From an uncultured Verrucomicrobia subdivision 3 bacterium (GTDB lineage Bacteria > Verrucomicrobiota > Verrucomicrobiia > Limisphaerales > UBA11358), in NCBI GenBank assembly GCA_903842235.1, contig CAIMLG010000324.1, positions 1 through 36,001 of the forward strand: a DNA stretch of 36,001 bases, read 5' to 3'. The notes below the pieces were generated by a model. That model saw only the letters and a program-made list of their open reading frames with translations. It ran no database searches and had not been told where the DNA came from. Both the position numbers and the translations under genes were made by a program. This document shows, in pieces, positions 134 to 27,664 of the stretch (position 1 is the stretch's first letter; each line of letters begins with the position of its first letter).

Positions 134-1282
134 ATGAAAGAATACATCCTCAAACCCATCACGACACCCCCAACCGTAGCGCTGACGCCGAAGCCTGACA
201 AGCCCGCAGTGGGGCGGAACCTGCCACCGCGTCAACCGTTGCCCACGGCGGTGATTGATCCCGCCAAGCCCATGCTCCAGCTCGGTCTGGACGTGCATCT
301 CGAATTCATCATGGCCGTGGCCCAGAAAGACCACGCCAATCCGCACGCCCCCCGCAAGTTCACCCGGGAACAACTCGTCGCCCAGGTCAAGAAGTGGGTC
401 GCCGAAGGTTTCCAAGTCTACTGTGTGCAGGAAAGTTGCGGCTTTGGCTTCGTGCTCCATCGCGAACTCGTGGCCGCCGGCGCGCAAAGTTTTCTCATCA
501 CCCCCATCGCCCTCAACGGCAAACGCAAGACCGACAAGCTGGATGCGCGCGCCCTCTGCCGGCGCCTCTCCCGCTGGCTCGACGGCACCCGCGACGAACT
601 CGCCCCCATCCGCATTCCTTCCCCAGCCGAGCAACGCAACCGCGAAGGCACGCGGCGCCGGAAGTTTCTGGCCGGAGCCATCCGCAGTCTGGCCAATCGT
701 GGTCACGCCCAAGTTTCCGAGTATTGCCATGCCCAACTGCCGCATCGTTGGTGGGGTCCGCGCAACTGGCAGAAACTCGCCACGCTCGATCCGTGGGTGC
801 TGGGAGTGCTGGCCAAGCTGCGCGCCTTGATCGTGGAAATCGAGAGGCAACTGGCGGAACTCGAAGCCGAACTGCTCGCCCGCGTGCCAGCTCAGATCGC
901 GCCCAAAGGGCTGGGGGGCATAACGCTGGTGACCTTGGACGGCGAGGTGTGCGACTGGCGGCGGTTTAGCAACCGCAAACAAGTGGGCAGTTACACCGGG
1001 TGTTGTCCCGGCGAACACAGTTCCGGCAATAAACGGCGCGTGGGCGGCATTGACCGGCTGGGCAACGGGCGCGTGCGGGCGTTACTGGTCGAAGCCGTGT
1101 GGCGCTTCCTGCAATGGCAGCCCAACTGGAAGGCGGCGGTGAAAATGAAAACCAAACTGGGCGCGGGCACCGCCATGAAGAAGAAAACCGTGATCGCTCT
1201 GGCCCGGCAACTGGCCATTGACCTGTGGCGCTGGCGCACCGGCCGCTGCACGATGGCAGAACTCGGCTGGGTGCCGGCTTAA
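134..1282 (+). CDS. IS110-family transposase (DEDD recombinase)
   Basis: 382 aa, normal length for the family. The N-terminal RuvC-like DEDD domain (about residues 48-200) shows GLDVHLE with D53, VQESCGFG with E100, and TDKLDARALCRRL with D134 and D137, the expected acidic residues. The C-terminal Transposase_20 domain (about 250-345) has YTGCCPGEHSSGNKRR followed by GGIDRLGNGRVRALLVEA, with the serine (SSG) that serves as nucleophile in IS110 recombinases. The enzyme cuts and rejoins DNA guided by a bridge RNA in characterised members. The first 45 residues are a proline-rich leader that is not conserved, so a later start is possible. The frame is intact and may be active. It is the only plus-strand gene I support. 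Confidence 0.93.
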   Translation: MKEYILKPITTPPTVALTPKPDKPAVGRNLPPRQPLPTAVIDPAKPMLQLGLDVHLEFIMAVAQKDHANPHAPRKFTREQLVAQVKKWVAEGFQVYCVQESCGFGFVLHRELVAAGAQSFLITPIALNGKRKTDKLDARALCRRLSRWLDGTRDELAPIRIPSPAEQRNREGTRRRKFLAGAIRSLANRGHAQVSEYCHAQLPHRWWGPRNWQKLATLDPWVLGVLAKLRALIVEIERQLAELEAELLARVPAQIAPKGLGGITLVTLDGEVCDWRRFSNRKQVGSYTGCCPGEHSSGNKRRVGGIDRLGNGRVRALLVEAVWRFLQWQPNWKAAVKMKTKLGAGTAMKKKTVIALARQLAIDLWRWRTGRCTMAELGWVPA

Positions 1283-1761: not shown

Positions 1762-2730
1762 TCATAGGAGCACCGGCGGCGCGTGCAGGTAACTGGCCAC
1801 CCGGCGCTTGGCTTCTATGTCGCGATAGACGCGTTCCACTTGCTCGGCTTTCAACCCGATGGCCCGGCCCACTTCCGCAGCGGCGCGGCCATGACTTTTT
1901 CCATACAAAACCAGATCCATCTGGTTGTAAGGCAGGGAAAAATAAAATTCTTCCTGCGATTGCGGGAGCGAATAAGTGTCGGTTGTCGGCGGCCGCTGGC
2001 AGATGCCCTCGGGCAGTTGGAGAAAACGGGCCATTTGATACACCTGCGTTTTGTAAAGGTGGGCGATGGGTTTGATATCCGCCGCGCCATCCCCCAGTTT
2101 GACAAAAAATCCCTGATCGTATTCCAAGCGATTCGGCGTGCCGGCCACGGCATAGTTCAAGCGGTCCGCATGATAATACTCCAGCATTTTGCGGGTGCGC
2201 TGTTTGAAATTGGTGGCCGCCACGATTCCGAAATACGCCTCCATCGTCAGGCGCGTTTCCGTGCGCTGGCCGGTCGGGGATTCGGCGACAATGGAAAAGA
2301 GGCGAAATTGTTCCTCGTCAAACAGCGTCGGCAGCACGATTTTGGATTTCCAGCCCAACCCATACGCCGGCACCACCAGCCGGATGGCGTCATCCCGCCG
2401 CCGGTAGCAGCCCACGGCTTCAAGCAGGCTGGTGATGTCTTCATGCACGGTTTCAATTTCCAGATGTTGGGCCAACTGTCGGCTTAGCGGCAATGTTTCG
2501 GCGGCCGAATCCTGTTCCGGCATCAACAGGCCCAACACGCGCTCCGGCCCCAGTGCCCGGACGGCCAGGGCGGCGACGGTGCTGCTGTCAATGCCGCCCG
2601 AAAGACCGATCACGAGGCCTTTCTTTCGGAAACGCCGCAGAACATGCTCCCGCAGCATCATGCCGATCCGGTCAGCTTCGCGGGCATAGTCCAGTTTCAA
2701 CGCGTCGGCGGAAAAGGATTTGGTGGGCAT
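1762..2730 (-). CDS. nadE: NAD synthetase (NadE-like, ammonia-dependent type)
   Basis: 322 aa. It belongs to the adenine-nucleotide alpha-hydrolase fold; the ATP pyrophosphatase loop SGGIDSS is at residues 44-50. Further family features are AVAGTPNRLEYDQGFFVKLGDGAADIKP written in two parts here (AVAGTPNR, then KLGDGAADIKP) and PPTTDTYSLPQSQEEF. There is no N-terminal nitrilase (glutaminase) domain, so ammonia or a partner would supply nitrogen. Known reaction: deamido-NAD + ATP + NH3 to NAD. It is the last gene of the operon, 15 bases after the acyl ligase. Its place beside an acyl ligase and ACP raises the possibility that it amidates another carboxylate. The C-terminus is complete or slightly short; the IS110 element follows at once. 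Confidence 0.85.
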   Translation of the reverse strand: MPTKSFSADALKLDYAREADRIGMMLREHVLRRFRKKGLVIGLSGGIDSSTVAALAVRALGPERVLGLLMPEQDSAAETLPLSRQLAQHLEIETVHEDITSLLEAVGCYRRRDDAIRLVVPAYGLGWKSKIVLPTLFDEEQFRLFSIVAESPTGQRTETRLTMEAYFGIVAATNFKQRTRKMLEYYHADRLNYAVAGTPNRLEYDQGFFVKLGDGAADIKPIAHLYKTQVYQMARFLQLPEGICQRPPTTDTYSLPQSQEEFYFSLPYNQMDLVLYGKSHGRAAAEVGRAIGLKAEQVERVYRDIEAKRRVASYLHAPPVLL

Positions 2731-2745: not shown

Positions 2746-4257
2746 TTACGGACAAACCGAGTTCGGCTGGGCTGGCTGGGCCAGCAGTTCCCGCAATTTG
2801 GTCTTCAAAACCTTACCCGAACCGTTGTGCGGCATGTTTTTGAGAAATACGATTTCCTCCGGCACCTTGAAAAGCGGGAGCCGTTGGCGGCAATGCAGTT
2901 CAATGGCCGTTGGCGTGATCGCTTCCTTTGCCACCACAAACGCCTTGATGGCTTCGCCCAGCAATTCATGGGGCGCACCCACCACCGCCACCTCGACGAT
3001 TTCCGGCAGTTCGGCAATGACCTCCTCCACCTCTTTGGCGCTCACCCGATTGCCACCGGACTTGATCAGCTCCCGCTCACGTTCCACGATGAAAATGAAG
3101 CCGTCGGCGTCCACGCGGGCCAAATCACCGGTGTGCAGCCGACCGTGCTTGAAATATTTCGCCGTTTCTTCCGGATCCTTCCAATAGCCCAAGGCAATGT
3201 TGTCGCCCGTCGCCACGATTTCCCCGGTTTCATCAGTGCCCGGCGTCACGGGCTGGCCATCCGGTTTCAGCACTTCGAGGCGGGTGGAACGCAACCCGGT
3301 GCCGATGGAACCCAACTTGTCCGCCAGCCGCACGGGCGGCAGATAACTCAAGCGCGCCGTGGCTTCCGTCTGGCCATACATCAGGAAATATTGCACCTGC
3401 GGGAAGGAAACCAGAATCTCGGCGATGCAGGCATTGGGCAGTTTTCCGCCGGCCTGCTGCAACCAGCGCAACGCCGGAAAGGCTAATTCGCGAAACCGGG
3501 ATTTGCGAAGTAATAACTGATACGTGGACGGCACCCCGGCAATCCCGGTGCAATCCCGGCGTTGCAGCTCTTGCAAAACTTCTTCCGGATACAGCCGGAA
3601 GCCGTTGTTCAGCACCACCGACGCGCCGGCCAGCAAGTGGGTGTGCAGCAGGGAAATTCCGAAACAATAGTGGAACGGCAGCACGACCATCACGCGATCT
3701 TGGGCCGTCAAACGCAGGTAGGCGATGATATCCCGCGTGTTGCACGCAATATTTTGGTGGCTGACCATCACGCCTTTCGGGGTGCCGGTCGAACCGGAGG
3801 TGAACATCAGTGCCGCGAGATCGCGCGCCGGATCAATTTCCGGCCAGTGAACCGCTTGGCCAGCCGTCAGCGGTTCCACCTCAGCCTCACCCAGCATAGT
3901 GACCCCGGCCCTTTCTGCCCAGGGCCGGAGCAGGGACTCATGGCGATTGGACACCAGCATTTCTTTGATCCCGGCGTTTTGGACAATCTGCGCAAACGTG
4001 GTCTGGCAAAGCTCGGTTGGAAACGGAACACTCACCAATCCGGCGCGGATCGTGGCCAGATAAGCCACCACAAAGAACGGACTGTTTTCAGAACAAAGCC
4101 CGATGCGGTCGCCCTTCACATGACCCCGTGCCAACAGCGCTCCGGCCAAGCGTTTGACCTGCCGCCGCAACTCGCGGTAGGTCAAAGTCTGGCCCCCGTG
4201 AAACACGGCGACCGCCGCGTCTTCACCAACGGACAGGATGGTTTTGGCGATGTTCAT
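2746..4257 (-). CDS. AMP-forming acyl-CoA/acyl-ACP ligase of the EPS locus
   Basis: 503 aa from ATG at 4257. ANL superfamily: the P-loop TSGSTGTPKG is at residues 153-162, YGQTEA near 297, LHTGDLARVD near 378, the hinge/C-terminal start KSGGNRVSAKEVEEV, and the catalytic lysine region NGSGKVLKT near the end. It activates a carboxylic acid as acyl-AMP and passes it to a thiol. The ACP stop codon overlaps this start by one base (TGATG), so the two are translationally coupled, and the ACP is the likely acceptor. Homologues occur in XrtA/PEP-CTERM type EPS loci together with an ACP and two hydrolases. A TTG one codon upstream is a less likely start. The substrate cannot be told from sequence. Confidence 0.88.
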   Translation of the reverse strand: MNIAKTILSVGEDAAVAVFHGGQTLTYRELRRQVKRLAGALLARGHVKGDRIGLCSENSPFFVVAYLATIRAGLVSVPFPTELCQTTFAQIVQNAGIKEMLVSNRHESLLRPWAERAGVTMLGEAEVEPLTAGQAVHWPEIDPARDLAALMFTSGSTGTPKGVMVSHQNIACNTRDIIAYLRLTAQDRVMVVLPFHYCFGISLLHTHLLAGASVVLNNGFRLYPEEVLQELQRRDCTGIAGVPSTYQLLLRKSRFRELAFPALRWLQQAGGKLPNACIAEILVSFPQVQYFLMYGQTEATARLSYLPPVRLADKLGSIGTGLRSTRLEVLKPDGQPVTPGTDETGEIVATGDNIALGYWKDPEETAKYFKHGRLHTGDLARVDADGFIFIVERERELIKSGGNRVSAKEVEEVIAELPEIVEVAVVGAPHELLGEAIKAFVVAKEAITPTAIELHCRQRLPLFKVPEEIVFLKNMPHNGSGKVLKTKLRELLAQPAQPNSVCP

Positions 4258-4508
4258 CAACCGGCGGATTGTTTGCTGGCGATGTAACGGGCCAGCTTGT
4301 TCACGGAATCAAAATTATCGCGCACCAGCTCCTGCGGTTTCACGTCGAGGCCATATTCTTTTTGGACAAAGGCCACCAGTTCCATGAAGCCCACCGAATC
4401 AATGATGGCCTGTTCCAGAAAGGACGCGTCGTCGTCGCACGGCAAGCCCGCATCGCTGAACAGGATGTCCTGCGCAATATACCGGCGGAGATTGTCTTTG
4501 ATCTGCAT
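4257..4508 (-). CDS. Acyl carrier protein
   Basis: 83 aa from ATG at 4508; the frame stays open further upstream, but that part only shadows the preceding hydrolase gene. Typical ACP features: acidic, four-helix size, phosphopantetheine attachment serine S38 in IIDSVGFMEL, then a short acidic helix (VQKEYGLDVKPQEL) and a final helix ending at the C-terminus. The motif is DSV with G after it, where many ACPs have DSL. It would carry an acyl or aminoacyl group on the phosphopantetheine arm, loaded by the adjacent AMP ligase whose start overlaps its stop. It is a dedicated ACP of this locus, since no fatty-acid synthesis genes are near. Confidence 0.88.
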   Translation of the reverse strand: MQIKDNLRRYIAQDILFSDAGLPCDDDASFLEQAIIDSVGFMELVAFVQKEYGLDVKPQELVRDNFDSVNKLARYIASKQSAG

Positions 4509-4531
4509 AGCTTCTGAGTGGGTTGGATGGT

Positions 4532-5587
4532 TCAAGTTGAGCTGGGGGTGGCGGGGGCGGGCTTGTCCAGCGGGAAGGATGCCACCGCCACCTGCCCCAG
4601 AGGGGTTTCCGGCATGACGGCCGCCCGGCAGGGTTGGCTTGGCGTAAAATTGTCGTCCAGCCAGGTCCCGACTAATTCCTGAACCGCCTGCGGTCCGGCT
4701 CCGGCCAAAAAGGAATGATTGGTGCCTTCGATCTTGTGGCACGTCACCGCGCCCTGACCGGTCCGCAAGATGTATTCCAGATAATCAAACGGCTTGCCCG
4801 TCCGGCGCGGATCTTGGGCCGTGATCACGAGCATGGGCAGGCCTGCCGTCCGCAGGTGTTCAAAGCTCTGAATCAACTTCCGGTTCGCCTCTTTGGGTAA
4901 ATCTGGCGAGGCCGGTTGGACGGCGGCTTTCCGGCTTTGAATTTTGGCGGCCTTCCACCGGGCGTGAATTTTTTGCAACGGCGCCCCGAGGCGCCGGGAA
5001 AGAATCCAAATGCGCAGCTCCTCATAAACCGCATTGACCCGCATCGCTAAGGATTTCCGCCAGCGCGCCCGCCGGGATATTTTTGACTGCAGCAATTCCT
5101 GGACTTGCACCAGATGGAAAATGGGGTCCAGCATGATGATCCCACCCACCCGGCTTTTATCCCGGGCCTGTGCTACGCTGAACAGCGCCGTGATGCCGCC
5201 GCCGCACAGCCCGCCCACGATGATTTTCTTCAAGCCGAAACGGCTGGCGAGCTCTCCGGATAACAGCGCGGCATACGGGGCGAAATCGCCTTGTTCAATG
5301 GCTCGGACAAACGTCACCGCATCTTCTGGCAACTTGCCGTCCGAATCGCCCAACCCGGGCAGATCGAAGCGGAATACCGGAAAGCCTATTGCCGCAATAT
5401 CATCGGCCACATGGGCTAGTAAATCGCCTTGGGCGGAGCGCGGCAGAAAGCCAGAATTGAAAAAGAGCACGCCCGGTTGGCCCGCCCCGGCAGTCGCCGT
5501 CGGCGCGCCGGCTGGCCCCGCCGCGGGCCGATGGAAGGTGCCGCTTAAGCGCAGGCCTTCGATCTCAATGTCAATGCATTGTCTCAT
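4532..5587 (-). CDS. Alpha/beta hydrolase with Cys at the nucleophile site (XrtA hydrolase-1-like)
   Basis: 351 aa. The alpha/beta fold is seen in GVLFFNSGFLPRSAQGD (oxyanion strand), FRFDLPGLGDSDG (residues 73-84), the nucleophile elbow GLCGGG (126-131) with C128 in place of serine, a likely acid D259 (TAQDPRRTG) and a likely base H291 (EGTNHSF). So a Cys-Asp-His triad is possible. It resembles the exosortase A system-associated hydrolase 1 group. The start lies one base after the stop of the other hydrolase, and the ACP starts 23 bases after its stop. It may release or transfer the ACP-bound group (inference). The last 40 residues are proline- and alanine-rich and probably disordered. Confidence 0.8.
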   Translation of the reverse strand: MRQCIDIEIEGLRLSGTFHRPAAGPAGAPTATAGAGQPGVLFFNSGFLPRSAQGDLLAHVADDIAAIGFPVFRFDLPGLGDSDGKLPEDAVTFVRAIEQGDFAPYAALLSGELASRFGLKKIIVGGLCGGGITALFSVAQARDKSRVGGIIMLDPIFHLVQVQELLQSKISRRARWRKSLAMRVNAVYEELRIWILSRRLGAPLQKIHARWKAAKIQSRKAAVQPASPDLPKEANRKLIQSFEHLRTAGLPMLVITAQDPRRTGKPFDYLEYILRTGQGAVTCHKIEGTNHSFLAGAGPQAVQELVGTWLDDNFTPSQPCRAAVMPETPLGQVAVASFPLDKPAPATPSST

Positions 5588-5588
5588 G

Positions 5589-6419
5589 TCAGGGGGCGGT
5601 CTTTTCCGTCGTTGGAATGTCCCGTATCCAGGCTAAATTGCTGGCAAAAAACTGGCTTAGATCCGGATTCAACGGGCAATGCCGCATGCGCGCGCGCGGA
5701 TTCAGCGCCTGCCACAACCCGCTGCCCGCCACCAGCGGCACTTCCGTTTGTTTTAATTTGATGATGCGCACCGGCCGCCCGTTGGCCGCTTTGTCGGCAT
5801 GGTTCGCCGTCAAGCGCAATGCCTTGCAGTCCTGCCAGAGCCGGGTCGTAATCCGATAGCCTTCGATGGAAACCGGCTCGCCGCCTTCGAGTTGGGCCAG
5901 ATAATCCACCGCACCCTTCGGCTCCGTCGCTCCCGCCTGCGCAAGATCAAACGACATCCGGCGGAGCAGCGCCTCGCGCACCGCCTGATCTCCGCTGGCC
6001 GGCGGGGACCAGAGCAGCAAGGCCTCACCGGCCCCGCGTTGAAAGGCTTCCGCCGCCAGCAGGGCGCCAAACCCCAGCCCCTGCCAGATCAGCGGCCGGC
6101 CGGGATGCTGCTGTTGCAACCATTGTCCGCAGAAATCCAAATCCGCCCGCCAGTCCGCCACGGACAGATCTTCAAACCGGCCGGTGCTTTCGCCGACGCC
6201 GCGATAATCAAAGCGCAAGGCGCTGACGCCATGTTGCGCGAGAAAGCGCGCCCACCGCACCCAGGGGGCATACGTCATCACCCGCTCGGTGGCAAACGGG
6301 CCGGCCAAGACCGCCACCGCCACCGGGGACACCGCCGGATGGTAAGCGTAATACAGCTGGCTGCCCAACTGCTCCCAATACCCGTTGGTTTCCTTGAGTG
6401 GCAATTCCAAAAGGGTCAT
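5589..6419 (-). CDS. Alpha/beta hydrolase-fold protein lacking the nucleophile (XrtA hydrolase-2-like)
   Basis: 276 aa. Fold marks: AVLAGPFATERVM, LRFDYRGVGESTG (residues 68-80), and the elbow at QGLGFGALLA, where the usual G-x-S-x-G reads G114-L-G116-F-G118. Glycine therefore sits where the catalytic serine belongs, and no clear late histidine loop is seen. It resembles the exosortase A system-associated hydrolase 2 group, which is typically found with hydrolase 1, an ACP and an AMP ligase. It may be a non-catalytic binding partner of the next gene's product; the two genes are one base apart. Family membership is fairly sure, while function is not known. Confidence 0.75.
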   Translation of the reverse strand: MTLLELPLKETNGYWEQLGSQLYYAYHPAVSPVAVAVLAGPFATERVMTYAPWVRWARFLAQHGVSALRFDYRGVGESTGRFEDLSVADWRADLDFCGQWLQQQHPGRPLIWQGLGFGALLAAEAFQRGAGEALLLWSPPASGDQAVREALLRRMSFDLAQAGATEPKGAVDYLAQLEGGEPVSIEGYRITTRLWQDCKALRLTANHADKAANGRPVRIIKLKQTEVPLVAGSGLWQALNPRARMRHCPLNPDLSQFFASNLAWIRDIPTTEKTAP

Positions 6420-6445: not shown

Positions 6446-7894
6446 TTAACAAGCCGGTTTTGCCAGGCGCGCCTCGGCGGCACTCCACACCTTGCCCAAC
6501 TCGCCGCCGATTTCCGGAAATATTTTAACGAATAGAATCAGGGTTAACGCCGTGAGTGAAGCCAGCACCGTCAAAGTTGGCACCAGGCCCCCATCCGGCA
6601 CCAGCCAGCGGGCGACTACGGCAGCCAACCCCACGCAAACGGTTCCCGCCAGCGCCGGGCCGAGGCACAGGCCGATTTCCATACCGTGCCGGCGACGGAC
6701 TTTAGTGATTTGGATCAGGAGAGCCAGAACTTCCCCAACCACGCCCGCCGCCACCACCCAATACAACGAACCTTTCAGTAACACGACCGGCACCACCAAC
6801 GCCAACCCCAGCAACCGGACGATATTTCCAATCATCTGCGTGGTGGTTTCCCCCCGGGCCCAAGCCACGCCGCTCGGCGCCCCGCGAATGATGCGGATGG
6901 CGTGGCTGTAGGCCAGGCATGCCGCGAGCAGGCCGGTGCCGGCGTATTTGCTGCCAAACAACAACGTCAGCAGGCCTTCCCCGCACACCACCATGCCGAT
7001 GACGAACAGCGTGCCCGTCAGCGCGAAAACCTGCGCCAGCAAGGCGTAGCGGGAGCGCAGCAATTCGTGATTTTCTGCCGCCTGCGCCAGCAACGGCAGC
7101 GAGATGCCGCCGACGATTTTCATCAGCGCAAAACAGGGCGTGGCGGCCAGCGACCACGCCACCGCATAGGTGCCCAAATCCTGCATGCTGTAGGCGCGCG
7201 TCATCATCAACCGGTCACCTTGCGAACTGCAAAGCATGATCAGGCCGGAGATGATGAGCGGCCAGCTATACCGGAGAATTTCCCGGCAATAATCTTTCCG
7301 GAAGCCCAAGGTGTAGGCGTTTCCCGCCACCAGATAGGAGACCAAGGTGGACAACGCCGCTTTGCCGATTTGAATCCAGATGAACGCCCGGAAATCCTGC
7401 AGCCAAGCCGCCAGCGGCCAGGCGGCCAGGGTGATCAGGATTTGCGGAATGGCTTCGAGCGAGACCGAACGCTCGAAATGCACCTCCCGCGCGTAGGTGA
7501 AAGCACCCAGATTGCCCAGCGCCATGCAGGCCGGGACCAAGGCCAACAGTTGCAATCCCTCGGCCAGTTGCGGCACGGCCAGCAATCCCGCCAGCGGACG
7601 GGCGATGACGAGAAAGGTAACTGCACTTAAGAAACCCAAGATGAATTGCACGGTGTGGCCGGTGTTGAGGAATGTCCGGTCGCCGCCATGCTTGGAGGCG
7701 ATCACCTGCTGGCCAAACGCCATTTTGCTGATGATCTCCAAGAAATAGAACGCCACGGTCAGTGTTGCTGCAATGCCGAAGTCATCCTTGGAGAGCACGC
7801 GCGCCAGAATGTAATTCCGGACGAGCGAGCAAACGCTGCCCACCGCCTCATTCAGGCTAAGGACGGCAGAACCGCGAAGAATTCGTTTTTTCAC
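6446..7894 (-). CDS. Wzx-like polysaccharide flippase (MOP/MATE-like exporter)
   Basis: 482 aa, with hydrophobic segments throughout that fit 12-14 membrane helices. The N-terminus SAVLSLNEAVGSVCSLVRNY followed by ILARVLSKDDFGIAAT is typical of oligosaccharide flippases (Polysacc_synt family). It would move the lipid-linked repeat unit across the inner membrane. The start is GTG at 7894, overlapping the preceding glycosyltransferase stop by four bases (GTGA). An internal start is less likely because the conserved N-terminal helix begins here. It is the only flippase in the window, and together with the Wzy-like and Wzz-like genes it makes the locus Wzx/Wzy-dependent. Confidence 0.87.
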   Translation of the reverse strand: MKKRILRGSAVLSLNEAVGSVCSLVRNYILARVLSKDDFGIAATLTVAFYFLEIISKMAFGQQVIASKHGGDRTFLNTGHTVQFILGFLSAVTFLVIARPLAGLLAVPQLAEGLQLLALVPACMALGNLGAFTYAREVHFERSVSLEAIPQILITLAAWPLAAWLQDFRAFIWIQIGKAALSTLVSYLVAGNAYTLGFRKDYCREILRYSWPLIISGLIMLCSSQGDRLMMTRAYSMQDLGTYAVAWSLAATPCFALMKIVGGISLPLLAQAAENHELLRSRYALLAQVFALTGTLFVIGMVVCGEGLLTLLFGSKYAGTGLLAACLAYSHAIRIIRGAPSGVAWARGETTTQMIGNIVRLLGLALVVPVVLLKGSLYWVVAAGVVGEVLALLIQITKVRRRHGMEIGLCLGPALAGTVCVGLAAVVARWLVPDGGLVPTLTVLASLTALTLILFVKIFPEIGGELGKVWSAAEARLAKPAC

Positions 7895-8763
7895 GCGCTA
7901 AATCGGGGTTCGTTTTTGGGTAGGGCGACGGGCGCAGGGTTATCCGCCCTGACGCCCGTCGATAAATTCTCTCGCCGGTTGTTGGCCAAAAGCTGTTCGT
8001 AGAGCGCCGCCGGATCCGCGCAGCGGCCGCCCACCCGGCGATTTTGTAGCCAGCCCGCCAAGCTCTCAAGATAATGGCGCAGCAGCGGCATTCCCCACCG
8101 GGTAATTGTTAGACACGGCGTGAAGAGCGGCAGTTGCGTCCGCCATTTCCGGCGCAGATAAATCAGCGCCTGCAAATACGCCAGCGGCAGCCGAGCCACG
8201 CCGTTTGAATTGTGGAGGCAAAACGCGGAGATCGCATAACATTTCATCCCCTGCCGCCGCGCTTCGAGGCAAAGATCCGTGCCGTAAAGATGAAATCCCG
8301 GCAGGGCCGCATCAAAGCGCAGACCGGACGAACGGCGCACGATCAAAACCACTTCGTCCAGCGAGCAGACTTCCACCGGTTGATCAAAGGGGTGGCCCAA
8401 AACGGCTTGCAGGCCGGTGGAATACAGGTGGCCGGCCCCCGCGCCCGACGGGCAGACACCGTAAACCCCCAGCACGGCCCACTGCGAATCGTGATGGGCC
8501 AGCGCGGCGGCGGCCTGACTCACGGTTTTGAACCAGCCGTCCGGTAAAAAAACATCTTGATGTGCGAAAATCATGAGTTCGGCTTGGGCGGTTTGCAGGG
8601 CCGCATTGTAAGCCTGTCCGGCCGAGCGGGCCTCGCGCTGGATAAAAACTTCGCTGATGGACCGCAGTTCGGGCGACCGCAGCAGAGTGCTGTGGAGGAC
8701 GGCGTCATTGTTGGCCGCCACCACCACGGACATGGCGGAAAGCGCGTGGACTGAATTCGTCAT
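7891..8763 (-). CDS. GT2-like glycosyltransferase with an HQD motif
   Basis: 290 aa. MSVVVAANND and the later EARSAGQAYNAALQTAQ match the nucleotide-binding half of a GT-A fold. The metal-binding DxD position reads FAHQDVFLP (about residues 70-78), a variant known in a GT2 subgroup. FHLYGTDLCLEARRQGMKCY (about 157-176) corresponds to the acceptor-site ED motif, here TD. There is no strong membrane helix. It overlaps its neighbours by four bases on both sides, so it is embedded in the EPS operon and probably adds one sugar of the repeat unit in the cytoplasm. Donor and linkage are unknown. Confidence 0.75.
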   Translation of the reverse strand: MTNSVHALSAMSVVVAANNDAVLHSTLLRSPELRSISEVFIQREARSAGQAYNAALQTAQAELMIFAHQDVFLPDGWFKTVSQAAAALAHHDSQWAVLGVYGVCPSGAGAGHLYSTGLQAVLGHPFDQPVEVCSLDEVVLIVRRSSGLRFDAALPGFHLYGTDLCLEARRQGMKCYAISAFCLHNSNGVARLPLAYLQALIYLRRKWRTQLPLFTPCLTITRWGMPLLRHYLESLAGWLQNRRVGGRCADPAALYEQLLANNRRENLSTGVRADNPAPVALPKNEPRFSA

Positions 8764-10415
8764 TTACTGGCGGGGGAGACGGTTTGCGAGCGCAGACAGG
8801 AGCGGAGCGGAGCGAGCCGGTCGCGGACCTCGGAAAGCCAGCGCCGGGCCTTTAGCCACGCTTGCATCTGTGGCGGCTCCACGGTGTGAAAATCCACGGC
8901 ATCGGCGGCGGTCGAAATGAGTTCCATCCGTTGGTGGCCTTGGCAGGAAAGGACGTCCGAGTGGCGGCCAAACTGTTTGGTCCATCGCGCCTGCCCGCCG
9001 GCATGGCAAATCAGCAGTTCCTGGCTTTCGCCATCGGCCAGCCACGGCCGTTCCACGACCAGTTGCTTGATCTCCGCCGGCATTGGCAGCGCGATGTGGC
9101 GAGCCAACATTTTGACGATGAGCGTATCGTTCTCCCGCCGGGTCAGGTAATTGGAGTGACTGATGGCGGTCATGTCAGTCCAAGTCACCGCGCCGAGGTT
9201 ATTAATGCTGAGAGCAGCGGCGTCCAGCAGTTCCAGCCCGCGGGCGCAATCCTGATGATGCCCGTGCGGAATGATCGGCTGATTCAGGAACGCCGCAAGG
9301 CGATAACTGCCGGCGTGCCCCGGCGCCATCACTTGCCGGGGAATCACCGGCAGTCCACCACCGATGAATTCACTGATGCCATGCCCGAAAGTGGCCGGCC
9401 AGGCCTTCTCCGGATTCCAACTGGTGAGTGAAGCCCGCGAGACGCAGGCAGCTTCGTAGCCCAGGCGGCGCATGGGTTCCGCCACTTTTTCCTGAAAGGC
9501 ACCGTAGGGCGGCACCATCACGCGCGCCACCGGCACGCCAGTTTGTTTTTCAAATCGCTCAATCCGGCGCAGTCCCTGGGCGAGCATTTGGGTGAATTGA
9601 TCGGGGGCCAACGGGGCGGCCAATTCCAGCGGGGCATGATTGTTTCCGTGCATGCACAGGGAAAGTTGCGCGGCCTGGGCGCGAAAAAGGGCTTTTACCC
9701 TCGGATTAATGAGCCAGGCATCCAGCGGCACCATGGCAAAGGCGACGTGATAATTTAAGACCCGGGCGTGCCGGGCCACTTGCCGCAAATCCAAAAACCC
9801 ATACGTCGGCCAATGGAGATTGGGGTCGTCAAACATCAGGCAGGCCCGCACGGGCGGCGGTTCCCAAGCGTGATCCCGCGTGAGCTGTTTCAGAAAATGG
9901 AAGAACGGTAGCAGTTGCAGCCAGCGGCACCGGTTGAAGTGGGTGTAGACGGTCTCACCGTCGGCTATTTCTTCCGGACCCAGCGCAACGAGAGAGAGCG
10001 TCGCGGTGCCGTTTCGCCGGGTTGCCCAATATGGCAACGAAGCCAGCCGGCAAAGGACTTCATCGCCCTCGTGTAAAGCAAGCGCCGGAATTTTTACGAT
10101 GCCTTCTTCAGTCATCGTCTGGCCGCGAAACGCCGGATCCAGCCCGGGCGGGGTCGAAAATTGCACCGTGGGTTTTTGGCCCAAGGCGGCTGTTTTTTGC
10201 GATCGAGTCACGACGAGACATTCAAGATCGGAAATGGCCATCAGTTCCTTGGCTCCAGCCTCATCTTCCCAAAGAATCGCTCCGTCAAACGCGGCCGCCG
10301 CGCCGGGTTGCCAGGCGGTAAAGTCCACGGGATACAGTTCGCTCAACAAACTGAACAACCGGGGGCGGGCCTGAAACGCGGTGGCCGGAGCCACAACAAT
10401 GGATTTCCGTTTCAC
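8760..10415 (-). CDS. Large NodB-like polysaccharide deacetylase
   Basis: 551 aa from GTG at 10415, which overlaps the stop of the preceding FrhB-like gene as GTGA; the frame is open further upstream but that part lies inside the preceding gene. The NodB core begins near residue 190: CLMFDDPN with D196-D197, then SLCMHGNNH with H256 and H260 (the H-x3-H metal site), then VMVPPYGAF. Catalytic residues for metal-dependent de-N- or de-O-acetylation are thus present. About 185 residues precede the core and do not resemble a known domain to me. No signal peptide is seen, so a cytoplasmic role is possible. It differs clearly from the smaller deacetylase at 19563-20447. Confidence 0.75.
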   Translation of the reverse strand: MKRKSIVVAPATAFQARPRLFSLLSELYPVDFTAWQPGAAAAFDGAILWEDEAGAKELMAISDLECLVVTRSQKTAALGQKPTVQFSTPPGLDPAFRGQTMTEEGIVKIPALALHEGDEVLCRLASLPYWATRRNGTATLSLVALGPEEIADGETVYTHFNRCRWLQLLPFFHFLKQLTRDHAWEPPPVRACLMFDDPNLHWPTYGFLDLRQVARHARVLNYHVAFAMVPLDAWLINPRVKALFRAQAAQLSLCMHGNNHAPLELAAPLAPDQFTQMLAQGLRRIERFEKQTGVPVARVMVPPYGAFQEKVAEPMRRLGYEAACVSRASLTSWNPEKAWPATFGHGISEFIGGGLPVIPRQVMAPGHAGSYRLAAFLNQPIIPHGHHQDCARGLELLDAAALSINNLGAVTWTDMTAISHSNYLTRRENDTLIVKMLARHIALPMPAEIKQLVVERPWLADGESQELLICHAGGQARWTKQFGRHSDVLSCQGHQRMELISTAADAVDFHTVEPPQMQAWLKARRWLSEVRDRLAPLRSCLRSQTVSPASK

Positions 10416-11728
10416 AAAGTTTTGGGAAAGCTTTCCAATTCGCCGGTGATCGGGCGCGTTGGGGATTCCGCCGGGGACAAACGCAGGGGGCGGTGGTAGC
10501 GGCGAGCAAAAATACGCCGGGCGGTGCCAAAGGTGGAGCGCAGTTTCTCGGCAAACGAGAGCTGGCGCCAATTTTTCCAAAGCGAGAAGCCGCGTAGTTG
10601 GGGCACCGGCAGGCCCAGCAATCGCATAGTCGCCACGCGACCACCGATGGCCCCGCGCTTGGCCAGGAGATTTTTCTGGGAACGCAGCAGTTTCGACGCA
10701 TCGGCTGGCTGCAACGTCAGGTAACCTGCCGTCCGCGCCGCTTGCAGCAGACGGCGTCCGGTTTCCGTTCGGACCAGCACGAGCGAGGAACCCGGCTCAT
10801 TGTCCGCCGTGTCGCGATACCACGGATCGCCGCAGGCAATGTCCGCGTCTTCGCCGGTGCCGTCCGGGCAAAGATGCGTGGAGAACGGGCGAAACGCCTG
10901 AACCAATCCCCAAGACTCCTGATAGCTCATTTGCAGGGCTGGCTGAGTCTGCCCTTTCTCGGTGACGGAAAACAAACCCGGCCAGCCGCGCCCACGATAG
11001 CGCAGGTCGGAAATCTCATTTGGATTAAGGCCGGCATTTTTCAAGAGTTCAACGGTGCCTTGCGTCGCGGGCGATCCGGCGCAAAAGAAGGAAATCGCCA
11101 GCCCCACCTTTTCGCCGAGCGCGGGGCGCAGCCGAGCAGCCTTGCGCAGGGCGGTGACTTCGCTCGGTTGGCCGATGAACACGCAAGGCGCGGGCGCAGA
11201 CTCGATCATCTGGAGGTCGTCACAGGCGGAAGCCGGCGCATAGCGGGAGCCGGCGTTGCCCAGCAGGTCCGCCCGGGTGTGACTCATGCGGGTCTGGTTC
11301 CGCAGCGCATCTTGGGCATCCATCCCGATGTGCAAAGTTCCATGCATGGATTCTTTTTCCAGACAATACAGCGCCAGCGCGGTGATGACGCCGCCGGAAG
11401 CGCCAGTGAAGCGGATTTCCGGATCGGTGGCGTGCCCCTCCCAAATTTCCAGCACCGGCCCGCAAGTTGGCGTCAGCTCGGGAAGGATGCCGGACCGCCG
11501 ATTAATTTCCTCGTGGTCGTTTTCAAACGCCGGACAAACCGAGAGACAATCCGTGCAGGCACTGCATTGTTCGGTTTCCACCACCGGGCGAATGCCTTCC
11601 GCCAGAAAATCCACCAGCCGGATTTTTCGTTCCGGGCAGATGTAGGCACACGCTCCGCAGCCAAGGCACAAGCGCGCTTCGACAATTTGACGGACGTTTT
11701 TGATTGGCAACATACCCTCTGATCCCAT
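10412..11728 (-). CDS. FrhB-like iron-sulfur flavoprotein (coenzyme F420 hydrogenase beta-subunit family)
   Basis: 438 aa from ATG at 11728; ATG at 11713 (433 aa) is as plausible, and neither has a good ribosome site. Two complete 4Fe-4S motifs: C21, C24, C27, C31 and C55, C58, C61, C65, each followed by proline. The FrhB/FdhB N- and C-terminal domains follow (GASGGVITALA, then RYRGRGWPG and ACGDPWYRD). Family members in EPS loci commonly sit near polysaccharide pyruvyl transferases; one such gene lies at 14789-16318, separated here by the beta-helix gene. It may run a redox step on a sugar or the pyruvyl donor (inference). The stop overlaps the next gene by four bases. Confidence 0.83.
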   Translation of the reverse strand: MGSEGMLPIKNVRQIVEARLCLGCGACAYICPERKIRLVDFLAEGIRPVVETEQCSACTDCLSVCPAFENDHEEINRRSGILPELTPTCGPVLEIWEGHATDPEIRFTGASGGVITALALYCLEKESMHGTLHIGMDAQDALRNQTRMSHTRADLLGNAGSRYAPASACDDLQMIESAPAPCVFIGQPSEVTALRKAARLRPALGEKVGLAISFFCAGSPATQGTVELLKNAGLNPNEISDLRYRGRGWPGLFSVTEKGQTQPALQMSYQESWGLVQAFRPFSTHLCPDGTGEDADIACGDPWYRDTADNEPGSSLVLVRTETGRRLLQAARTAGYLTLQPADASKLLRSQKNLLAKRGAIGGRVATMRLLGLPVPQLRGFSLWKNWRQLSFAEKLRSTFGTARRIFARRYHRPLRLSPAESPTRPITGELESFPKTL

Positions 11729-11753
11729 GGAATTGTTGAAGCCGGCGCGCGCT

Positions 11754-14669
11754 TCAAGGAACCGTGTTGGTGTCCACCACCAGGCTGGACGGGGCGGTGG
11801 GCGGGATCGCATTTACCAGGATCTGGATTTCCGCCGCCGTCAGGGCGCGGTTGTAAATCCGCAGGTCATCAATGAAGCCATTCACGGCTTCCCCTACATT
11901 GCCATAGCGGCCGACGCACAAAGGCTGGGTGGTTTGTAACAAGGTTCCCGAAAAAACCGAACTGGATTCCAGCACGCCATTCACATAAATCCGCACCGCC
12001 AAACCGTCATAAACCCCCGCCAGATGATACCAGGAACCATAAGCATGCGCCGCGCCCCAGTCGGAGGTTCCCCGAGTGGAGTCGCCGGCCCGGGTGACGC
12101 CCATGCGGGCTTTGAATGTGCCGCTGCCAAAATCTTGCACCACCAAATCGTAGGCGGAATAGGGGGAATTATTGTTGGACAGGCTGATGACTTTTCGAAC
12201 GACGTCCTGCATATCGCCCGCGGTGTGGGCGATATTGGTGCCCAATTTCACCCAGCCACAAATGGAAACCGCGCTGACCACTTGCTCCAATTGGGGGGTG
12301 CTGGGCACCTGCACATATCCGGTGAGACCGCTGAGCAACAAGGCACTGCGGATCCGCCCAGGGCCGCGCGTGGCATCGCCAACCAGCGTTCCATTGTTTC
12401 CGTTGTCGGACGAATCCAGGGCGACCGTTCCCGATGTCTCCTCAAAGGGCCAATAGCCAATCAGGCCGCTCAGGGGGTTCGGACCAGCGTTCTGCACCGT
12501 CAACGCCACGCTGCCGGACAAGGTTTGGTTGCCGGCCAAATCCAGCGCCCGGGCCTGCAAGGTGTGTGCGCCATTCAAAACGGATTGGCTGTTCCAGACC
12601 AACGAGTAGGGAGCGGTTGAACTGCTCCCCATGACGACGCCATCCAACAAAAAAGTGACGCTCGCGAGGCCCACGTTGTCGCTGGCGGCCACCGTCAAGG
12701 TGAGGGTGTTGGAAACCACCGCGCCCGCCGTCGGGCCGGTCAGACTGACGACCGGCGGCGTGGTGTCGGGAACCGGATTAAGCACGGTGACCGTCACAGT
12801 GCTGGAAAGCGCCTGATTGCCGGCCGCATCCTGGGCTCGGGCTTGCAGCAAGTGGCTGCCATTCAACCCCGCCGTGCTATTCCATGAAACCGAATAAGGC
12901 ACGCTGGTGCTGGTGCCCAACGTCACCCCATCCACAAAAAAAGTGACGTTGCTCATCCCGGACCCATTGATGTTATCCGTTGCCGTGGCGCTCAGGGTGA
13001 CCGAGTTGGAAACCACGACGCTGGCGGTTGGGGCGGTCAAACTGACTGTGGGCGGCGTGGTGTCGGACAGATTATAAACCGTCACCGCCAAGTTGCTGGA
13101 AGCGGCTTGATTGCCGGCTGCGTCCTGCGCTTGCACCTGAAGCGTGTGGGCGCCGTTGGTCATGCTCTTGGTGTTCCAAGCCACCGAATAAGGTGCGGTG
13201 GAAGTGCTGCCCAGCGTAACGCCATCCACCAGAAATGTAACACTCGCGACCCCAGTGTTGTCGCTGGCTGTGGCGGTGAGCGTCACGGTATTGGAAACGG
13301 TCGTGCTGCCGGCGGGCGAGGTGAGGCTCACGGATGGCGGCGTGGTGTCGGAGGTTCCCGCGTTGTATTCATAAGCTCCGATGTCCCAAGTCCCGTCCGC
13401 GCCCCGCACGTTGCCGTCCAGATCCACGTTAAACGGGACCCCCAAAGCCGCGCCTTTGTTGCGCGGCAGGGTGGCGCTGAGGTTGCTGACAATGTGGTAA
13501 TTCTGGCCGGAGTAATTGACGAACGGATTGGCGCCATTGGCGATGCCGCTAGTTTCGCTCAAAGTGCTGTTCGCAAACTCGTAATCATTATCCGGCAAAC
13601 CGCCCGCCGCCGAATTCCAATACAGGTTGTTCCGCGCCTGGGAACCGGCGGCGTAAATGCCGCCGTTCGCCACCCGATTTCCCATCGGCACATTGACGAC
13701 GGTGTTGTTGTAGAAATAGACCGGTCCTTCGACGCCGTCCTGCGCCTCGACGACGCGGCTGACACCTGTCATGCCGTCATGCCACACGTTCCCGTAGATA
13801 TACCAGTTGGCTGCGCCGCCCGAGATGAACATGATGCCCTCGACCTGATGGTTGTAGATTTCATTGTAACGCCAGGTGATATTGGTGCTGCCCGAGGTGG
13901 CGCAGACGTTGGCGTGGTAAGTGGTGGAATTGGCGGCGGCGGCATCATACATCTTGGTGTATTCAATGGTGGAATTGTAACAGTTCAACAGCCAGAGGTT
14001 GTTGACCTGCCCATGAATCCGGCAATGGCTGACCACCAGATAATTAATGGGCGCATATCGCCAGGTATTACCATTGTCCGGGGAAGACCAGGCGGTGGCG
14101 TCAATGCCCCGGTTGTCGCCATTCATGTTGATGGCCGTGGCTCCGCCCGGCCCGGCGAGGTCGAGGTTGGTCAGCGTGATGTAATTTACGCTATCATCAA
14201 TGCCCACGCTGGCACCGTCATTGTTGGGGGTCACGAGTTGCATGCCGCTGTCGATGCGGCCGTCCACGCTGATGCAGCTGAGCCCGGCGATGTTAAACAC
14301 CAGGGCGTTGTTCCCGCCGGCATTGATCACCACTTGGGAATCGTAGGCGCTGTTCCAGCCCGCCGCACTCGTCGGGGCCGCATCGGTGGCGCGCACCCGC
14401 TTGATGGAAATCCAGGCACTGGAAGTTCCGCTGACGGCGGGCTTCAGCGTGGTCGTGTAGGTGCCGCCGGCGAACCAGACCGTGTCGCCCGCCACCACGC
14501 CTGAGCCGCCCCAGACAATGGAGGAACATTCCGTCCACGCATTGTTCCAATCGGAGCCGTTGTTGGAACCGGTGGCGCCTTTGCGGACGTATAAATTTTT
14601 GGCGGCGGCGGAAAGAGCAAATCCCACCACGAGCGAACAGACGATGAACAGATATTTGTAAGAGCGCAT
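11754..14669 (-). CDS. Secreted beta-helix / triple Ig-like / LamG protein
   Basis: 971 aa. A signal peptide is clear (KYLFIVCSLVVGFALSAAA, cut near residue 23). Residues 25-440 look like a right-handed beta-helix rich in N, G and T with repeated short strands (polysaccharide lyase-like or adhesin fold). Three Ig-like modules follow, each starting DTTPP (441, 536 and 635), about 95 aa apart. A LamG/concanavalin-like domain covers about 735-945 (YWPFEETSG to DDLRIYNRALTAAEIQ). It lacks a PEP-CTERM or other sorting tail. The end, PPTAPSSLVVDTN, reads like the start of a fibronectin type III domain cut short. It could bind or modify the EPS outside the cell. The ribosome site GGAGGT lies 5 bases before ATG. 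Confidence 0.85.
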   Translation of the reverse strand: MRSYKYLFIVCSLVVGFALSAAAKNLYVRKGATGSNNGSDWNNAWTECSSIVWGGSGVVAGDTVWFAGGTYTTTLKPAVSGTSSAWISIKRVRATDAAPTSAAGWNSAYDSQVVINAGGNNALVFNIAGLSCISVDGRIDSGMQLVTPNNDGASVGIDDSVNYITLTNLDLAGPGGATAINMNGDNRGIDATAWSSPDNGNTWRYAPINYLVVSHCRIHGQVNNLWLLNCYNSTIEYTKMYDAAAANSTTYHANVCATSGSTNITWRYNEIYNHQVEGIMFISGGAANWYIYGNVWHDGMTGVSRVVEAQDGVEGPVYFYNNTVVNVPMGNRVANGGIYAAGSQARNNLYWNSAAGGLPDNDYEFANSTLSETSGIANGANPFVNYSGQNYHIVSNLSATLPRNKGAALGVPFNVDLDGNVRGADGTWDIGAYEYNAGTSDTTPPSVSLTSPAGSTTVSNTVTLTATASDNTGVASVTFLVDGVTLGSTSTAPYSVAWNTKSMTNGAHTLQVQAQDAAGNQAASSNLAVTVYNLSDTTPPTVSLTAPTASVVVSNSVTLSATATDNINGSGMSNVTFFVDGVTLGTSTSVPYSVSWNSTAGLNGSHLLQARAQDAAGNQALSSTVTVTVLNPVPDTTPPVVSLTGPTAGAVVSNTLTLTVAASDNVGLASVTFLLDGVVMGSSSTAPYSLVWNSQSVLNGAHTLQARALDLAGNQTLSGSVALTVQNAGPNPLSGLIGYWPFEETSGTVALDSSDNGNNGTLVGDATRGPGRIRSALLLSGLTGYVQVPSTPQLEQVVSAVSICGWVKLGTNIAHTAGDMQDVVRKVISLSNNNSPYSAYDLVVQDFGSGTFKARMGVTRAGDSTRGTSDWGAAHAYGSWYHLAGVYDGLAVRIYVNGVLESSSVFSGTLLQTTQPLCVGRYGNVGEAVNGFIDDLRIYNRALTAAEIQILVNAIPPTAPSSLVVDTNTVP
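12492..13349 (-). repeat. Three tandem Ig-like module repeats within the secreted protein gene
   Basis: Three coding repeats of about 285-297 bases begin near 13349, 13064 and 12767. Shared features of each unit are DTTPP, a VSNTVTLTA-like strand, ASVTFLVDGVTLG, APYSVAWN, NGAHTLQ and DAAGNQ. The middle unit carries a three-residue insertion (INGSGM). The units differ in many positions, so this is not a very recent duplication, but recombination between them could change the copy number. Confidence 0.85.
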
Positions 14670-14788: not shown

Positions 14789-16318
14789 TCATTGGGCGGG
14801 GGCGGCGTTCGCAGTCCCAAATTCATCCGCCCGCGTTCCAATTTGGTGCGGGGCTGGTTTGCTTTCAGACACGGCAGCCGGTCGGCGGGCGCGGTCGGCG
14901 GCGAACAGATTAGCCACGCTTTGCCGGACGGCCGGCATTTTGGCCGCCAGCCGCGCGTGAATTTCCGACCGCGCAACATAGGCGCGGTCAAGCAACGCGA
15001 TAATTTCCGCCGCGTCCGCCGCGCGCAAATCGGCGACCAGACTTTCCGCTCCGACCGTGCGCAGCACGCCGAGGAATTTTTTGCTGTAGGCCAGCCCCAC
15101 GGCGGGCACACCCTGCGACAATGCGGCAATGCAGGCGTGCATCCGCGAGCCGAGGAAAAAGTCGCAGCGACCAATGAGATATTTCATTTCATGCTGGTCG
15201 TAGGCTTCCGTCACGGCCAGCAGTTTCCCGGGAAACTGCTTTTCCAGGTCGCGAAGCACCGCGGCGTTGGCCGCCGGGTCGCTCTCCAAATTGCCTGGCT
15301 GGCCAAACACATGCGGCACCAAAACCACCCGAGCCCCTTTTTCAAAAATGAAAAACTCCACAATCTGCCGAATCAGCGCCTTGTAATCCGCCTTCAAGCC
15401 AAACATGTTTTTACCGGTGTAGCCGCCGGCATACAGCAGCCCGCTCACATTGAGTCCCACGAGGGGCGAGGTTTGCCCACCCGCTGCCAACCACTCCGGC
15501 AGGTTGGCGGGCGCAAAGGGTTCCAGCAGGAATGCCATATCGTGGGCGAAATCGGCCTTGGCAGAATGCTTATTCAAAAGCGGATGGATTTCCGCCAGAC
15601 TTTCTGCGTCCCGCGCATAAACCCGCTCCGAGCGACGCAAAATAGTGCCCGCCACTGCGCGCGCCAACCGGCTTTGGAAGGGTCCGTAGGTTTGCGGCAG
15701 AAGCGTCAGCGGTTTGCCCAGCAAGAGCACAAGCAATTGCGGCAGCGCGATATAAATAAACCGGCGCATTCCATAGATGTCACTGAAACTGTCCCCACCC
15801 GCCAGCGAGCCAACAATGTCGGCCTTCACAATTTGGCTGAGGTATGGATTTTTCTGAATCCACCGCTCACGGAGGGTTCTCGACGGCACCAATTTCAAAA
15901 TCAAGGCGGCGACCAGCAGGCGGGCGATATTGTTCCGCAAATGCAGCTTCCAAGAAAAACGGAGATTCACCCATTCCACGGAAGCGACGCCGGCGCGGTG
16001 TTTGACCGGATAGGTCGCGGAGGTTTCACCGTAATCGAGGAGGAATACCCGCGCGTTGGGAAAGGTGCTGACCACCGAAGCGACCGTGTTGGCGGCCAGC
16101 GCGCTGACGCCCAAATTTCCGGTGCCGAAGGCCGCGCCCAGAATACAGCAGACCGGCTGGCCCGACAGCCCGGAGGCCGGACAATGACGAGACGCTGGAT
16201 CCGTGCGGAGATTCGCATTTTTGCGAAAAGCCGACCGCGCCCGTTCGCCGACCAAGGCGACTCCCGGTGACGGATAATCAGGCAAGGTTTGCTTCAATGA
16301 TGGGCTCATCACTTTCAT
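14789..16318 (-). CDS. Polysaccharide pyruvyl transferase (WcaK/CsaB family)
   Basis: 509 aa from ATG at 16318; ATG at 16309 is an alternative, and both overlap the end of the preceding polymerase gene. The family domain starts near residue 56 (VCCILGAAFGTGNLGVSA) and ends with the hallmark GSRMHACIAALSQGVPAVGL (about 392-411), where the R and H are the conserved active-site residues. It would transfer pyruvate from phosphoenolpyruvate to a sugar to form a ketal, adding negative charge to the EPS. A poorly conserved leader of about 50 residues precedes the domain, and the C-terminal 30 residues are low complexity. Its FrhB-like partner lies beyond the beta-helix gene. Confidence 0.87.
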   Translation of the reverse strand: MKVMSPSLKQTLPDYPSPGVALVGERARSAFRKNANLRTDPASRHCPASGLSGQPVCCILGAAFGTGNLGVSALAANTVASVVSTFPNARVFLLDYGETSATYPVKHRAGVASVEWVNLRFSWKLHLRNNIARLLVAALILKLVPSRTLRERWIQKNPYLSQIVKADIVGSLAGGDSFSDIYGMRRFIYIALPQLLVLLLGKPLTLLPQTYGPFQSRLARAVAGTILRRSERVYARDAESLAEIHPLLNKHSAKADFAHDMAFLLEPFAPANLPEWLAAGGQTSPLVGLNVSGLLYAGGYTGKNMFGLKADYKALIRQIVEFFIFEKGARVVLVPHVFGQPGNLESDPAANAAVLRDLEKQFPGKLLAVTEAYDQHEMKYLIGRCDFFLGSRMHACIAALSQGVPAVGLAYSKKFLGVLRTVGAESLVADLRAADAAEIIALLDRAYVARSEIHARLAAKMPAVRQSVANLFAADRARRPAAVSESKPAPHQIGTRADEFGTANAAPAQ

Positions 16319-26694: not shown

Positions 26695-27348
26695 TTATGA
26701 ATGTGTTGCTGCCAGACCTGGCACCAGCTCCGCCAAGGTGTTCTTTTTCAAAACGATTGAACTCCGATCTACTTCCACCGGCGTTGGCCCACCCAATATA
26801 TCCAGCAATATCTGCACCCGCTGTCGGGCTGGCAGCACGCGCAAAACATACGCAGACATTCCGACAAACCCACCGTCCCCCACGGTCACTTCATCACCCG
26901 GTGCCAGCCGATCCTCAATGGACATGGGTTTTTCTGCCTCAAAACATTCCTGCAACTCCCAAATGGCTTGATCCGGCACCGGCGGAATCCGGTGTCCGAA
27001 ACAAACCAGGCCATTAATGCCCTCGGTGCGGCCGATTTCATTCAGCCGGTCTTCAATGACACAATGGATAAAAATGTAACCAGGAAACAGAGGCTCGACG
27101 ACGCGCACCACGCCGCGCCGGGTGGCTCGTTCCACCCGCAAGCGGGGATGAAACACACCCAAATGCAGGCGCTTGCTCACATTGGCGGCGGCGATGTGCT
27201 CGTGCTTGGGTTTCGTGCGGGCGCAATACCAAGCCAGCCCGCTGGCCGACCGATGCACCGCCTCCATGACCTCGGAATCCCGCCACGCCGCATTCGCTGG
27301 GTGGCGATGGATCGCCGGCCAATCGGAGGTATGTTTTCGATGCATCAT
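26695..27348 (-). CDS. Specialised NusG-like transcription antiterminator (RfaH/UpxY type)
   Basis: 217 aa. The NGN domain (about residues 38-140) begins LAWYCARTKPKHEHIAA and includes LFPGYIFIHC (87-96), both typical of NusG paralogues. The KOW domain (about 148-200) has GDEVTVGDGGFVGMSAYVLR. The protein lacks the normal housekeeping NusG context (secE, rplK). Such paralogues bind RNA polymerase and let it read through long EPS operons. It sits as the first gene of the locus, in the same direction. ATG at 27348 or 27345 opens the frame; M28 may be the true start, since the first 35 residues are not conserved. Confidence 0.85.
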   Translation of the reverse strand: MMHRKHTSDWPAIHRHPANAAWRDSEVMEAVHRSASGLAWYCARTKPKHEHIAAANVSKRLHLGVFHPRLRVERATRRGVVRVVEPLFPGYIFIHCVIEDRLNEIGRTEGINGLVCFGHRIPPVPDQAIWELQECFEAEKPMSIEDRLAPGDEVTVGDGGFVGMSAYVLRVLPARQRVQILLDILGGPTPVEVDRSSIVLKKNTLAELVPGLAATHS

Positions 27349-27515
27349 GCGGTGATCGAGGTTGGTAGGCAGATGCTCCAGCCGACCGGCATCCTTGTGT
27401 GCTGGCGAATATTTCCTTCGCCGTGGGAACCAATGGGTTCAAGGCATGACCCGTCAGTCGACTGGATATTTAGCGGCCCCTCTCTCATGTAGGAGATAAT
27501 AATGGGTATGCCAGA

Positions 27516-27546: not shown

Positions 27547-27575
27547 CTCATCCAAATGCCTAGATGATTTTCCGT

Positions 27576-27606: not shown

Positions 27607-27664
27607 TGAGGGATAAGAGCTGGAAACAGCTAGCCCAGGGCTGGCTAGAAAGCCGTTGGAGCGA

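Follow-up and report, generated by a model that had tools for sequence, protein, structure and literature searches.

A putative acyl-activation gene set with NadE-like and AsnB-type partners and its exopolysaccharide cluster in an uncultured Verrucomicrobia subdivision 3 bacterium

Closest described systems

Exopolysaccharide (EPS) loci of the XrtA (exosortase A)/PEP-CTERM type contain a TIGR03098 ligase, two alpha/beta hydrolases of the families TIGR03100 (hyd1) and TIGR03101 (hyd2), an acyl carrier protein (ACP), and a TIGR03108 amidotransferase. A related gene set is present in contig CAIMLG010000324.1 (C324) of an uncultured Verrucomicrobia subdivision 3 bacterium (GenBank assembly GCA_903842235.1). 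The window, meaning the whole stretch of DNA analysed, is this entire contig of 36,001 bp, and the draft genome comprises 4.32 Mb in 354 contigs and is 89% complete. The set has four adjacent genes, a fifth gene for a NadE-like protein, and probably a sixth for AsnB, and is apparently widespread in bacteria and undescribed. With moderate confidence, the set is read as a variant of the XrtA-type acyl-ACP genes that works independently of an exosortase and, together with an amide-forming AsnB/NadE pair, modifies EPS.

The set resembles XrtA loci in its gene types, the ACP-hyd2-hyd1 neighbourhood, the AsnB relative, and the EPS context. The likeness extends to a Cys in hyd1 (GLCDG where read in XrtA loci) and a residue other than Ser or Cys in hyd2 (GLRxG). 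In contrast, the ligase, hyd1, and hyd2 of the window score under the curated cut-offs, no exosortase was recognised among the contig proteins scanned, and a NadE-like gene is added that the canonical XrtA loci examined do not have. Relatives of the ligase, hyd1, hyd2, and AsnB already belong to the catalogued content of XrtA loci; as far as found, that description includes neither this partner nor the exosortase-free contexts.

In D-alanylation by the DltA/DltC system, a cell-surface polymer is modified by way of an AMP ligase that loads its own small carrier protein. The cassette likewise combines a ligase with a dedicated small carrier protein, but no DltB/DltD-type partner occurs among the window proteins scanned, and the ACP reaches 25 bits against the DltC model (cut-off 68). 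The butirosin side chain is made by the BtrJ ligase, the BtrI ACP, and the BtrH acyltransferase; an ACP-bound amino acid is modified and then moved to the sugar. Only this logic may be alike; the set studied here has the AsnB/NadE-like pair instead, and no pyridoxal phosphate-dependent decarboxylase is found among the scanned proteins. The AsnB relatives WbpS, WbqG, and PGN_1234 make uronamides, and WbpS and WbqG (TIGR03108) give uronamide sugars in surface-glycan clusters (PMC7468200). An AsnB-like enzyme in such a cluster is a shared feature. The AsnB of the related cassette locus L057 matches TIGR03108 with 454 bits, which counts in favour of the reading given above but is below the cut-off of 817, and a uronamide is only putative here.

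What the ACP, ligase, and hydrolases of XrtA loci do chemically appears to be unsettled. In Haft 2006 (PMC1569441), the words 'hydrolase', 'acyl carrier', and 'ligase' do not occur in the main text, and no functional study of the set in XrtA loci was found among open papers. No paper describing the present cassette was found in the open-access literature either, which is weak evidence since it covers open papers only.

The gene set and its conserved partners

The four adjacent genes lie on the minus strand in the order hyd2, hyd1, ACP, AMP ligase, with stop/start gaps of +1, +23, and -1. These coordinates bear out the four open reading frames, their order, and the contacts given in the initial annotation, and Pfam and TIGR profile matches agree with its naming of two alpha/beta proteins, an ACP, and an AMP ligase. 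The AMP-forming acyl (or aminoacyl) ligase (2746..4257, minus strand) matches PF00501 with 249 bits and PF13193 with 68 bits. It starts with ATG at 4257, a TTG at 4260 being also possible. Its score against TIGR03098 is 341 bits, below the curated cut-off of 592, and it matches the ligase of locus L078 with 734 bits. The ligases of the cassette loci fall into two subtypes, PLSFDYGLYQ and PFxYxxGxSLLxTH; that of the window belongs to the second, and its motif PFHYCFGISLLHTH is common to part of the cassette ligases. The ACP (4257..4508, minus strand; PF00550 29.6 bits, cut-off 20.8) has a DS phosphopantetheine attachment motif. Its ATG at 4508 follows hyd1 after the +23 gap, and its stop shares one base with the ligase ATG (TGATG, 4259-4255). 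The top curated matches of the ACP are cispentacin and ornithine-lipid ACPs, under cut-off. The presence of an AMP ligase together with an ACP implies acyl-thioester formation.

The fifth gene (1762..2730, minus strand) was not counted in the initial annotation; it is co-directional and starts 15 bp past the ligase stop. It encodes a NadE-like amide ligase, an N-type ATP pyrophosphatase of the PRK00876 subfamily, with 497.5 bits on NF002048 (cut-off 313). Both the score and the SGGxDS motif agree with PRK00876, and the PP-loop SGG.DS is kept in 68 clustered NadE-like homologues. Identity is 62-74% to the proteins of loci L057, L078, L079, and L080 and 50% to that of L051, and the nearest named relatives by similarity are Verrucomicrobia metagenome-assembled genomes (MAGs). 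The NadE-like protein is a more informative partner of the module than the hydrolases.

The NadE-like alignment was run against a genome collection and the 80 best-matching loci were retained, 64 of which have enough flank for neighbour counts within about 10 kb; 24 loci with hyd2 and without the NadE-like gene served as controls, and the phylum was sampled by 289 genomes. The best 80 loci span about a dozen phyla. They comprise Verrucomicrobia, Planctomycetes, deltaproteobacterial lineages, Actinobacteria, Nitrospira, Acidobacteria, Spirochaetes, Armatimonadetes, Myxococcales, Rokubacteria, Gemmatimonas, KSB1, Fibrobacteria, and other Proteobacteria. AsnB is a neighbour in 55/64 loci, the ligase in 56/64, the ACP in 54/64, and all three in 47/64. 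The control loci have AsnB in 0/24, this ligase in 0/24, and an ACP in 5/24 (Fisher p ~1e-14 for AsnB and for the ligase, with related genomes not independent). Query-free clustering of neighbours places the ligase (65 loci) and AsnB (61/86) far above other families. The other five NadE-like loci of the phylum all have AsnB plus an AMP ligase or adenylation gene nearby.

Gene order varies among these loci. It is Wzx/hyd2-hyd1-ACP-NadE-ligase-AsnB in L057, ligase-deacetylase-like-hexapeptide-ACP-NadE-AsnB in L078, and ligase-ACP-AsnB-NadE in L079, and in L080 AsnB-ligase is accompanied by a NadE gene on the other strand. The ligase, ACP, AsnB, and NadE-like protein form the broadly conserved unit, and hyd1 and hyd2 are optional. 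The four genes first proposed as a unit are not supported as one, with hyd1/hyd2 in 4/64 loci.

Three members of this quartet, the ligase, ACP, and NadE-like genes, lie on C324; the AsnB orthologue is elsewhere in the draft genome, truncated by a contig end. The best AsnB match in the genome (63% identity, 940 bits) occupies C206:21908-23863, where the 23,864-bp contig ends before the gene does. Same-strand genes of C206 include EPS types, read from sequence as polysaccharide export, DegT aminotransferase, and UDP-sugar dehydrogenase, and Pfam identifies GNAT and GDSL proteins. Between the module and the end of C324 lies an IS110-family transposase gene (134..1282, plus strand; NF033542 166 bits, cut-off 140). 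By comparison with L057, its site is where AsnB would be expected, and the gene order would equal that of L057 if C206 continued the left end of the window. The idea that the contig breaks here because IS110 is present in many copies was rejected, as only short partial matches occur elsewhere in the genome.

The proposed pathway and its EPS setting

The initial annotation regarded both hydrolases as serine-less. Neither has an elbow Ser, but hyd1 has an invariant Cys and His, and only hyd2 looks dead. In hyd1 (4532..5587, minus strand; TIGR03100 48 bits, cut-off 168), the nucleophile elbow is GLCGG (GxCxG) with Cys128, and Cys128 and His291 are invariant in 11 homologues, for which reason hyd1 looks like a Cys enzyme. 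It is proposed to be an acyltransferase or thioesterase. In hyd2 (5589..6419, minus strand; TIGR03101 76 bits, cut-off 203), the elbow is GLGFG, and the nucleophile position is taken by Gly116, with Gly or Arg in all 11 homologues; hyd2 is a probable pseudo-enzyme partner. XrtA-type loci from the order of a Nitrosomonadales relative (L156) have GLCDG in hyd1 and GLRxG in hyd2 where the pattern search located the elbow. The serine-less elbow is thus a trait of known families. In the wide sense the XrtA hydrolase pair is present in the window, as hyd2 and hyd1 are adjacent, lie beside the ACP, and have a Cys in hyd1 and no Ser or Cys in hyd2. TIGR03100 and TIGR03101 are the closest curated hydrolase models, both below cut-off. 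The proposed relation of an ACP-loading module to the XrtA-associated set is supported.

The AlphaFold2 model of hyd1 (predicted local distance difference test, pLDDT, 75) and the predicted structure of hyd2 (pLDDT 83) both have an alpha/beta hydrolase fold. Feruloyl esterases and lipases are the closest folds of both, and the thioesterase DcsB is a further one of hyd1. The fold comparison of both proteins gave generic alpha/beta hydrolases, without a decisive transferase match. In other genomes of the phylum, open frames of about 550-680 aa cover the hyd2 match in L047, L050, L052, L053, and L063, and two hyd-type matches in one frame suggest hyd1-hyd2 fusions in G098, G202, and G210.

In both the NadE and the AsnB family, a carboxylate is activated as acyl-AMP before an amide is formed. 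In the favoured reading, the ligase would adenylate a small (hydroxy- or amino-) acid and load it on the ACP. AsnB and the NadE-like protein would activate carboxylates as acyl-AMP and form amides, giving a uronamide from a uronic acid, an amide of the acyl group, or both. Through Cys128, hyd1 would take over the acyl group of the ACP and hand it to one of the sugars in the EPS repeat unit ahead of Wzx export, hyd2 being its non-catalytic partner. The acyl group may be attached to the EPS or to its lipid carrier. The hyd1 step is proposed with less confidence than the remainder.

Several observations weigh against this pathway. The pair hyd1/hyd2 occurs in only 4/64 cassette loci, so that another transferase is needed in most, which weakens the hyd1 step, and the nearest folds of hyd1 are mostly hydrolases. 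AsnB is on C206, and no overlap exists between the left end of the window and the right end of C206 at k = 15-31. One phylum supplied all the control loci, and the 80 loci cover just the nearest relatives of the NadE-like protein. Where hyd1 and hyd2 are absent, a GDSL/SGNH protein, found in 15 cassette loci (L107 17301-18098 and 15 relatives), is a possible alternative acyltransferase. Hexapeptide transferases occur beside the ACP in some loci and ketoacyl synthase III (KAS III) genes in 7. Together with the SGNH genes, these suggest that different loci use different partners for transfer or chain building.

All recognised genes between 1762 and the NusG paralogue (27348) are on the minus strand and belong to an EPS pathway. 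They encode a sugar transferase, a Gfo-type oxidoreductase, a hexapeptide transferase, a Wzz/kinase, glycosyltransferases, a deacetylase, Wzy, a pyruvyl transferase, an FrhB-type protein, and Wzx. The EPS operon setting given in the initial annotation is borne out by Wzx, Wzy, Wzz, the sugar transferase, the glycosyltransferases, and the NusG paralogue. The Wzx-type flippase (6446..7894, minus strand; PF13440 149 bits) adjoins hyd2 upstream; in L057, Wzx is also directly before hyd2, and both are within one open frame. A remote polysaccharide-deacetylase-like protein of 606 aa (8760..10580, minus strand), with a marginal PF01522 match, may be a further module member. It has a 305-bit homologue within the L078 cassette, between the ligase and the ACP.

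Genes for an FrhB-type iron-sulfur protein and a polysaccharide pyruvyl transferase of the EPS cluster occupy 10412-11812 and 14789-16318, with a 971-aa Ig/laminin-G protein between. Upstream of the EPS cluster, 26695-36001 contains the NusG paralogue, a PAS histidine kinase, and a LuxR-type regulator, followed by secretin, T2SS-M-like, and T2SSE genes. A PADLOC scan of five module-area proteins gave no match.

Alternative explanations and significance

The set may instead make a small diffusible or lipid product, such as an amidated acyl or aminoacyl compound, the EPS cluster being merely positional. This is unlikely, although some loci speak for it. L051 (6934-17315) contains A-PCP, NadE, AsnB, C-A-PCP, a phosphopantetheinyl transferase (PPTase), hyd1, and hyd2, that is, the same genes with non-ribosomal peptide synthetase (NRPS)-type A-PCP and C-A-PCP proteins. 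Its first A domain, judged by eye from the specificity code, looks Ser-like and may give a lead to the acid loaded. An NRPS-like gene in L104, the KAS III genes of 7 loci, and the below-cut-off resemblance of the ACP to cispentacin and ornithine-lipid ACPs also speak for a small product. However, Wzz, Wzx, sugar transferase, and glycosyltransferase genes surround the set here and in many other loci, and no natural-product-type export or resistance gene was recognised in the window.

The locus would be an ordinary XrtA EPS locus if its exosortase and PEP-CTERM genes were on another contig of the same chromosome region, which is quite improbable. Families of XrtA loci include relatives of the ligase, hyd1, hyd2, and AsnB, and the genome contains three exosortase-family loci and 11 PEP-CTERM matches over cut-off. 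All of these are on other contigs; none was found among the scanned proteins of C324, in line with the initial annotation, and no exosortase was recognised on C206. None of TIGR03098, TIGR03100, and TIGR03101 is over cut-off in the window (341/592, 48/168, and 76/203), whereas the XrtA comparison locus L182 has 808 bits for the ligase, 350 for hyd1, and 318 for hyd2; nor do the canonical loci examined share the NadE-like gene. In one of the exosortase loci, L065 (G000:C180), a sugar transferase lies near the exosortase-family gene and a PEP-CTERM match is about 7 kb away within that contig; this is a separate exosortase-associated EPS locus of the genome.

Across genomes, an exosortase is within 10 kb in 11/64 cassette loci and undetected in 19/48 cassette genomes searched, although MAG gaps could hide some. 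These counts indicate that the gene set can exist without an exosortase. L096 (G301) has the ligase, ACP, AsnB, NadE-like protein, hyd1, and hyd2 together in a genome without a detected exosortase. No significant association between hyd2 and exosortase is seen in the phylum (31/38 vs 212/289; Fisher p = 0.24). The proposed independence from exosortase stands on other genomes, including that of L096; the genome of the window itself has exosortases.

That the NadE-like protein is a plain NAD synthase in an incidental ligase/ACP/AsnB neighbourhood is very unlikely. In favour of it, the protein keeps the PP-loop along with many NadE-type positions, and its profile matches Protein Data Bank (PDB) NAD synthetases in two blocks separated by a long insertion. 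Against it, a separate canonical NadE is present here (C246) and in at least 15/25 cassette genomes tested, and the NadE-like protein is rare in the phylum (over cut-off in 6/289 genomes) with an association that recurs across phyla.

A wider and more tentative proposal is that the ligase/ACP/AsnB/NadE-like quartet is an undescribed, widely spread pathway for amidated ACP-derived substituents of surface glycans in about a dozen phyla, of which the XrtA set would be a specialised offshoot and not the source. Named strains that carry the cassette, among them Nocardioides luteus and Geothrix rubra, make the question testable without a Verrucomicrobia host. Relatives of the set in genomes where no exosortase was detected set sugar chemistry apart from protein sorting, and the presence of NadE-like and AsnB partners suggests that amide formation is a common step. 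Exosortase has been suggested to conjugate proteins to an amino-acid-modified sugar (PMC7468200). Should the set produce an amidated acyl or aminoacyl sugar, this would bear on that suggestion.

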